Position numbers and translations under genes: made by a program
Assembly: GCA_900318115.1 (NCBI GenBank)
Contig: ONJJ01000006.1
Location: 33,909-97,908, forward strand
DNA length: 64,000 nucleotides
Direction of reading: 5' to 3'
DNA from: an uncultured Prevotellaceae bacterium
GTDB taxonomy: Bacteria; Bacteroidota; Bacteroidia; Bacteroidales; Bacteroidaceae
Notes under the pieces: model-generated
Told to the model about the DNA's origin: nothing
The model's database searches: none
What the model saw: the letters and a program-made list of their open reading frames with translations, nothing else
In this document: positions 24,376 through 25,382 of the stretch, one piece after another
How positions within the stretch are numbered: position 1 is the stretch's first letter
Layout: each line of letters opens with the position of its first letter

Positions 24376-24474
24376 GGAGAGTGAGGATGGCTGCGTTCTG
24401 CTCTTCATCCGGCTGAGGAATAGTTTGCCAAAAGAAATCCCAGCCTGTTCTCCCGTGCGAAAAAAGATTTTGAG

Positions 24475-25004
24475 AAAAAATGTCGGAATCTTACGCATTT
24501 ATCGATAATAATACTGATATACAAACACTTGCGATGCGTAAGATTGTGCGTAAGATTGTGATTTTGCGTAAGATTTTTGTGCCTAAACGTGTTTACGCAG
24601 GCTATTAGGCGCCAACTTTATCGAATACCTCTCGAACATCATCAACAAGATATACCGATTACCTCTCGAACGTCATCAAAAAGCCTACATCGATGCAACC
24701 GGACTCCTAAAACGAAGTTTCAGCGAATACCAGCGGTGGTACAAAAAAGTACCACCGCTGGTACTTTTAAGTACCACCGCTGGTACACGCCCTCATTCCA
24801 TGGGCCGGAGCACGGGATCCCTTGATTTAGGTTGCTCCTTGCTACCATCCATTTAGTCCGATTCCAGCCTAAATCTTACGCAAATTCACTAATCTCACGC
24901 AAAATCTTACGCAAAATCACCAATCTTACGCAGAATCTTACGCATCATAACACACTATATTCAAGCGAATTAAGTGGCAAATGCGTAAGATTCCGACATT
25001 TTTT
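24475..25004. repeat. Noncoding element bounded by 26-bp perfect inverted repeats, with mirrored GCGTAAGATT iterons
   Basis: 24475-24500 and 24979-25004 are exact reverse complements over 26 bases. Inside, GCGTAAGATT occurs in plus orientation at 24536, 24548 and 24566 and in minus orientation at 24872, 24903, 24922 and 24934 (plus a one-base variant at 24891); each outer repeat carries one more in the opposite sense. The arrangement is therefore mirror-symmetric around a centre of about 290 bases, which holds a 15-bp hairpin (24728-24763) with a third copy of its arm and a direct repeat with core TACCTCTCGAAC (around 24626 and 24660). No reading frame in the core is convincing. It covers most of a gap of over 600 bases. 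Confidence 0.85.
24728..24785. repeat. Hairpin TACCAGCGGTGGTAC with a competing third arm
   Basis: Arm 1 is 24728-24742 and arm 2 is 24749-24763, a perfect 15-bp stem with an A6 loop. A second exact copy of arm 2 at 24771-24785 could pair with arm 1 instead, giving two mutually exclusive structures. Confidence 0.85.
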
Positions 25005-25382
25005 CTGAAATTATTATTGTTCCCAGTCTTCCCAGTCGCTTCTGATTCATCCCAGAAGCCACTGCCACGCGAGACCGTCAGCCGCATCAAGCAGCAGCTA
25101 CAGCAGTATGTGGAAACGGAAGAGCATTTTCTTGATCCTCACCTCACGCTCCGCGACGTACTCGTGGTCGGCTGCACCTACAACCGCAGTTATGTGTCGC
25201 GCGTACTCAACGAGGAGATGGGCTGCACCTTCTCGGCCTACGTCAACCGCCTGCGCCTGCAGCGGGCCGACGACCTGCGCCGCCAGGAGCCGCAGGCACC
25301 TATCGGCGACATCATCGCCCGCTCCGGCTTCGACTCGCCATCAAACTACTATAAGGCGAAGCGGAAGTATGGGGAGGAGTGA
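24981..25382 (+). pseudogene. AraC-type HTH fragment, probably truncated regulator
   Basis: Residues about 30-133 are a clear AraC/XylS DNA-binding domain: TLRDVLVVGCTYNRSYVSRVLNEEMGC, FSAYVNRLRL, then IGDIIARSGFDS and YYKAKRKYG. The usual N-terminal sensor or membrane part of Bacteroidota AraC proteins is absent, and the second helix-turn-helix ends abruptly after KRKYGEE. The first residues (MRKIPTFFLK) are encoded by the right inverted repeat and are also encoded, as a mirror image, by the left one, so they are not native regulator sequence. Either a decayed gene or a mini-regulator using the element for its start. Confidence 0.6.

Follow-up and report, generated by a model that had tools for sequence, protein, structure and literature searches.

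The segment between positions 24454 and 25024 of the window (the whole stretch of 64,000 nucleotides analysed here) is probably, with a likelihood that we put at about 0.62, a non-autonomous representative, itself without genes, of a family of Bacteroidales chromosomal elements, and one on which a VapE-type protein acts in trans. Its mirror-image ends are like those of larger, helicase-coding elements, and it therefore looks like a stripped-down form of these. The coding members carry one large gene, in which a BT4734-like (PrimPol-like) domain is fused to a VapE-type AAA+ helicase, sometimes accompanied by DUF6078. The ends are family-specific iteron arrays, each made of an outer site, a spacer of ~35–40 bp and two to five sites in reversed orientation. 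The window element shares its ends with other elements, occurs in several dispersed copies, holds no genes and has coding relatives, and a sister copy is absent from a syntenic site. The initial annotation had offered three readings of this segment, and was right in part: the one that finds support is a MITE-like element mobilised in trans, given the dispersed copies, the syntenic site lacking one of them (C45) and the coding elements that have these ends or sister ends.

The two 26-mers that bound the segment are, as described before, exact reverse complements of each other; among 200 mononucleotide shuffles of the 901-bp region, the best reached a perfect inverted repeat of 16. The inverted repeat continues imperfectly beyond 26 bp (40 nt at 90% identity), and each 26-bp arm forms the core of an imperfect end of ~125 bp, the left and the right end being 79% identical over ~117 bp (Table 1). 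All nine exact iterons reported earlier (TGCGTAAGATT or AATCTTACGCA) are present, plus a tenth with one mismatch. From the outside in, each end consists of an AT-rich stretch with AAAAAATGTCGG, one iteron, a spacer of ~35 bp and the inner iterons in reversed orientation. Since the outermost iteron of each end is oriented opposite to the inner ones, the left and right ends are mirror images; the mirror symmetry noted originally thus holds, but the iterons do not uniformly face inwards. The longest ORF inside (82 aa) has no Pfam match, which agrees with the earlier view that the segment contains no convincing gene, and Pfam named no recombinase among the seven window ORFs scanned. As DNA, the element had no match in the plasmid and phage collections.

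Table 1. Features of the window element and of its right flank (window coordinates; R1 is the end model described in the text)
Feature	Position	Strand	Remarks
Left end (outer flank and iteron, spacer, three inner iterons)	24454..24579	+	R1 model 100.5 bits (L039:6363-6488); one of the 14 R1 input sequences
Perfect 26-bp inverted repeat, left arm	24475..24500	+	
Outer iteron, left end	24487..24497	-	
Three inner iterons, left end	24535..24575	+	At 24535, 24547, 24565
Two interior 31-bp direct repeats	24619..24683	.	87% alike
Palindrome array GTACCACCGCTGGTAC, three units, 22-bp period	24728..24786	.	Similar arrays elsewhere in own genome
Five inner iterons, right end	24872..24944	-	At 24872, 24891 (one mismatch), 24903, 24922, 24934
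Right end, mirror of left end	24900..25024	-	R1 model 105.7 bits (L039:6809-6933); one of the 14 R1 input sequences
Perfect 26-bp inverted repeat, right arm	24979..25004	-	
Outer iteron, right end	24982..24992	+	
5'-truncated AraC-type gene fragment beside right end, outside element	25035..25382	+	HTH_18 and HTH_AraC only

The centre of the element had been described as a switchable 15-bp hairpin with an extra copy of one arm. These sequences (24728–24742, 24749–24763 and 24771–24786) form part of an array of palindromes with a 22-bp period, and arrays resembling it are found at four other places of the same genome (C28, C34, C26 and C72; L035–L038), where no iterons were found. The central palindromes, which recall REP/BIME-like arrays, are a dispersed repeat separate from the elements and present also outside them, and they do not explain the ends. 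Rfam gave just sub-threshold miRNA and sRNA matches for the window element, all to the palindromes. The palindrome unit varies by lineage (GTACC..GGTAC, GTTCC..GGAAC, GTCTCA..TGAGAC, GTCCCA..TGGGAC, GTTTCC..GGAAAC), and the 22-bp period was seen in 15 of the 19 gene-less elements described below, among the two best periods listed for each.

The window element is one of several in its genome (G000; 3.33 Mb in 74 contigs, an assembly 87% complete), which has 41 exact copies of the 11-mer TGCGTAAGATT and none of the reversed control. Forty of these lie in six clusters that correspond to five two-ended elements, the window's included, and one half element; a copy of a sister subfamily is also present. 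By eye, the flanks of the copies are unrelated to one another. The outer sequence CGCGCGTAATAA occurs four times in this genome, each time at an element end (reversed control, once). Of the four other two-ended GCGTAAGATT copies, C40, C42 and C45 extend at both ends outward into an alternating CG run and C38a has something similar at one end only; the window copy has none.

Across the genus, the iteron pair was found, with up to two mismatches, in two of 139 genomes, one of them G000. R1, a model without structure built from 14 ends, had matches at E 0.01 or better in 24 of the 139. The matches are concentrated in G000 (22), G127 (21) and G123 (18), part of them being weaker readings of the same ends on the opposite strand; in each of the remaining 21 genomes there are one to three matches, of which many are weak and may be due to chance. 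The sister subfamily, with the iteron GCAGTAGATT and usually two inner sites per end, is present in G127, G083 and G000 (C49). In total we found 19 two-ended gene-less elements of 489–882 bp, eight of them in G127 alone. The ORFs of the 18 others are 61–176 aa long, the Pfam scan having covered that of the window element. The exact iteron-pair pattern was found in a single record (L041) of the genome contig collection and in none of the viral contigs, which also had no match to the outer-site pattern of a human-gut family described below. Two instances of sequence sharing were seen along the way. First, a mosaic segment of 314 bp that includes an element end (L089:2625-2938, L101:96-409) is 99.7% identical between G000:C49 and G127:C5, which differ on both sides of it; second, two contigs of the assembly G078 (L109 and L110) have at least 5408 identical bases in common, including an end-like match.

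Facing ends also enclose coding elements, of 3.1 kb in G123 (C16), 3.2 kb in G127 (C25) and 2.7 kb in G093 (C22). R1 scores at these ends were 74.0 bits (C16, right), 37.3 and 29.2 (G127:C25) and 32.6 and 20.3 (G093:C22); of the six ends, just the left one of G123:C16 had been used in building the model. The gene between the ends has 703–750 codons and encodes PF08800 (BT4734-like N) and PF05272 (VapE-like), above the curated Pfam cut-off in the proteins of all three coding copies (L086, L087 and L088; 63–75 and 102–112 bits, respectively), and PF19555 (DUF6078) is additionally present in G123:C16 and G127:C25. The VapE gene, plus DUF6078 in two, accounts for the long frames between the ends; the remaining frames either overlap these genes or are in part outside the ends. 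In G093:C22 the whole space is taken up by the VapE gene, which the other listed frames overlap. No integrase, packaging or virion gene was found among the long frames, which the domain scan covered, unlike in VapE-type phage satellites, which carry an integrase and genes for phage interference or packaging, and the element proteins scanned had no recombinase or transposase domain. In G127:C25 (L087:6628-9519) there is a third, right-type end beyond the coding element, and genes of the RhuM family and for KilA-N lie between the two right-type ends, as if neighbours could be enclosed.

The genome of the window has four PF08800 genes, none of them found with GCGTAAGATT ends in the 87% of it that is assembled, so its copies may be stranded, or their partner may lie in the missing part. 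Among viral contigs, no relative of the L086 protein was confirmed; relatives of the protein of L285, a human-gut coding element described below, occur at three loci, where no mirrored pair was found. Two of the three begin at the contig start and have no left side; an array on the right side is seen by eye.

All 13 genomes searched for genes with PF08800 (G000 and 12 chosen for their R1 matches) have them, 62 matches in total, while 14 named control genomes gave one match, in Bacteroides ihuae. We screened 43 BT4734/VapE loci (40 regions around 40 of these PF08800 matches, and the three coding copies, whose genes are likewise among the 62) for mirrored ends, defined as mirrored arrays of the same 10-mer, one mismatch allowed, upstream and downstream of the gene. 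Eight loci passed (L086, L087, L155, L156, L158, L160, L183 and L184), compared to 11 of 1806 mismatched locus pairs; the other 35, including all ten of one clade, had no mirrored ends in this screen. With slightly looser settings, two of ten GenBank loci passed (L285 and L292) against 1 of 90 mismatched pairs, and no mirrored ends were found at the other eight, among them L290 of P. distasonis. A score-based screen of all 53 loci, with a score of 2 or less required, retained 8, compared to 3 of 2756 mismatched pairs; L156 (score 3) and L160 (above 4; in G000) failed it, and six loci pass both screens. As L086 and L087 owe their inclusion to the R1 model, a less biased score-based count is 6 of 50, with L086, L087 and L088 set aside; L088 passes neither screen. 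The iteron word varies by family, the forms seen being GCGTAAGATT, GCAGTAGATT, GAAGGTGTAA, GTGCATGAA, GTGACAGAT, AAAGTGCT, GTGAAGGCAAA, GGTGGCAGTTT, GTTGCAGAT and CTGACAATA. Eight loci without detected mirrored ends (L161, L162, L164, L165, L167, L171, L174 and L175) belong to one clade and have neighbouring sequence in common across species; this clade is possibly a settled, non-mobile copy.

Both GenBank loci that passed are coding elements, one in Bacteroides finegoldii (L292; NZ_OY725909.1), the other in a contig from human faeces (L285; MT838091.1). By eye, their ends follow a similar order, with one outer site, ~40 bp, three inner sites and a further inverted site inside. Another faecal contig (L294; MT837971.1) contains a gene-less element of ~530 bp whose ends are those of L285 (78% identity over 137 bp). 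It also has a palindrome array, and is the human-gut counterpart of the window element. The faecal contigs L284 (MT839260.1), L285 and L294 are labelled 'Bacteriophage sp.' and look like pieces of bacterial chromosomes; in L285, for example, the region of a ferritin-like gene matches a B. finegoldii record at 87%.

By Pfam, the coding elements encode a member of the BT4734/BF3469 family (PF08800 with a VapE-like PF05272). In the section of PMC5862659 that deals with them, BT4734-like proteins are listed as a family of AEP primases, whose motif I is hhhDhD/E, and VirE/VapE-type (PF05272) domains as predicted helicases of mobile-element replication. An alignment of 50 proteins shows the two acidic residues of motif I together in none of the 11 from mirrored-end loci (the eight of the 10-mer screen, L285, L292, and L088, which was assigned by the R1 model) and in 17 of the 39 others (Fisher p 0.009, a statistic that ignores relatedness). 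The mirrored-end proteins thus have a degenerate motif I, unlike that expected of an active AEP primase; they retain Walker A- and B-like motifs. In a tree of 43 proteins (7 divergent rows were dropped), L086, L087 and L088, the coding copies with related ends, form a clade with 100/100 support. The 11 mirrored-end rows are scattered within a group of 37, and 8 changes are needed to account for them; as 45 of 500 shuffles gave a number as low, the label is not significantly clustered. A clade of ten rows, which includes the loci with conserved neighbours, has no mirrored-end member.

That the elements have moved is supported by their dispersal, by one syntenic site without a copy and by one homology break at an element end. 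The syntenic site is that of C45: in G123 the genes flanking it are conserved (94% over 1432 bp and 86% over 131 bp) and no iteron element was seen between them, but the DNA between the genes is longer and divergent, which makes the junction unreadable. The homology break is between the coding copies of G123 and G155, which are 90.7% identical over 2295 bp up to a CG-rich terminus, the flanks beyond being unrelated; the G155 copy runs to near the contig end. At the trpS locus, where G123 has C16, the element is absent from G000, the left gene alone being comparable. A comparison with relatives thus yielded a syntenic site lacking the copy, but no base-exact empty site, be it for the flanks of L032 (4 genomes), L097 or the window locus (139 genomes each), the trpS locus (18 genomes) or L285, L290, L292 and L294 (annotated collections); the search with L034 in 15 genomes led to the C45 site described above, which is syntenic and lacks the element but is not base-exact. 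Consistent with the earlier failure to see a target duplication, none was found in 20 two-ended elements, the summed flank match being 46 compared to a permuted mean of 61 (sd 7.4; 294 of 300 permutations reached the observed sum or more), with the limit that pure CG matches were skipped and the ends are mostly CG runs, so that a short CG-only duplication would be missed.

At the window site itself, G123 is the one relative found to have the element, at the same position and in the same orientation, so the window copy either predates the split of the two or has been shared through recombination. Identity between the two genomes is 81–86% for the left side and most of the element, and 97–99% for the right border and right flank.

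We propose a way in which gene-less copies might move. A VapE protein of the same family would bind both mirrored arrays as a nucleoprotein complex and then unwind, replicate or excise the segment between them; gene-less copies would be moved in trans without a detectable duplication of the target, and the CG termini may have a role in this. Iterons are typical of origins, and the ends could, alternatively, be the sites at which integrated satellite-like islands, using the VapE helicase, are replicated or controlled, with the gene-less copies being remnants or decoys that do not move themselves. PHROGs profiles matching the element proteins are indeed named DNA helicase or DNA primase, and PF05272 domains are predicted to serve mobile-element replication (the section of PMC5862659 cited above). 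VapE/PrimPol replication modules of mobile elements and phage satellites likewise combine iterons with a helicase fused to a primase-like domain. In the present family, however, the iterons are mirrored on both sides and gene-less derivatives retain both ends; the copies are dispersed, as the eight in G127 illustrate; and none of the 11 mirrored-end proteins has an intact motif I in its primase-like domain. We therefore regard such islands as an unlikely explanation.

Somewhat less likely again is that a conventional transposase of unrecognised type, encoded elsewhere in the genome, moves the elements and that the BT4734/VapE gene is mere cargo. The lack of a recombinase domain in the scanned element proteins would fit this, as would the genome of the window, which has GCGTAAGATT copies and no detected coding copy of the GCGTAAGATT family. 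Against it, iteron words vary between protein lineages, the three coding copies whose ends are related encode proteins that are sisters, and in G093:C22 there is little between the ends but the VapE gene.

The other two readings of the initial annotation fared poorly. An invertible, promoter-switching segment, suggested by a gene-less stretch between inverted repeats, is very improbable, because neither strand of the element has a TAnnTTTG box (as had been noticed), no recombinase was found among the seven window ORFs scanned, the orientation is the same in G000 and G123, and copies occur elsewhere in different surroundings. That the iterons are clustered sites to which the AraC-type regulator encoded next to them binds, as the start of the ORF with the AraC fragment inside the right repeat might suggest, is hardly credible, since the genome has five further clusters of these iterons and the gene lacks the N-terminal part present in its G123 counterpart, which lies within a 434-codon open frame ~5.4 kb from the element of that genome.

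As a probable non-autonomous element dependent on a VapE-type protein, the window element resembles MITEs in being short (19 elements of 489–882 bp, all below ~1 kb), without coding capacity, bounded by terminal inverted repeats, dispersed in several copies and related to larger coding elements with the same ends. It differs from them in its long, composite ends with iterons of mixed orientation, in that no target duplication was found, and in that the elements sharing its ends encode a helicase-type BT4734/VapE protein and DUF6078 and, among the proteins scanned, no recognised transposase. In the open-licence literature we found no description of BT4734/BF3469-family proteins within elements bounded by mirrored iterons. 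The family may, somewhat short of an even chance, represent a class of mobile elements that move without a canonical recombinase, by means of a helicase joined to a catalytically degenerate primase-like domain and recognising mirrored iterons, with an iteron of its own for each protein lineage, each of which could support gene-less derivatives, in rumen-type Bacteroidales and in Bacteroides of the human gut.

BT4734-type genes, found in every one of the 13 genomes searched, are listed just as a primase family in the cited section of PMC5862659. Their iterons, mirrored and specific to each lineage, offer a direct way into the role of these genes, and the gene-less copies are natural substrates. 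If the protein moves its element, this would be a mobile element whose sole large gene is a helicase, and movement of DNA without a recognised transposase would be testable in culturable gut Bacteroides.
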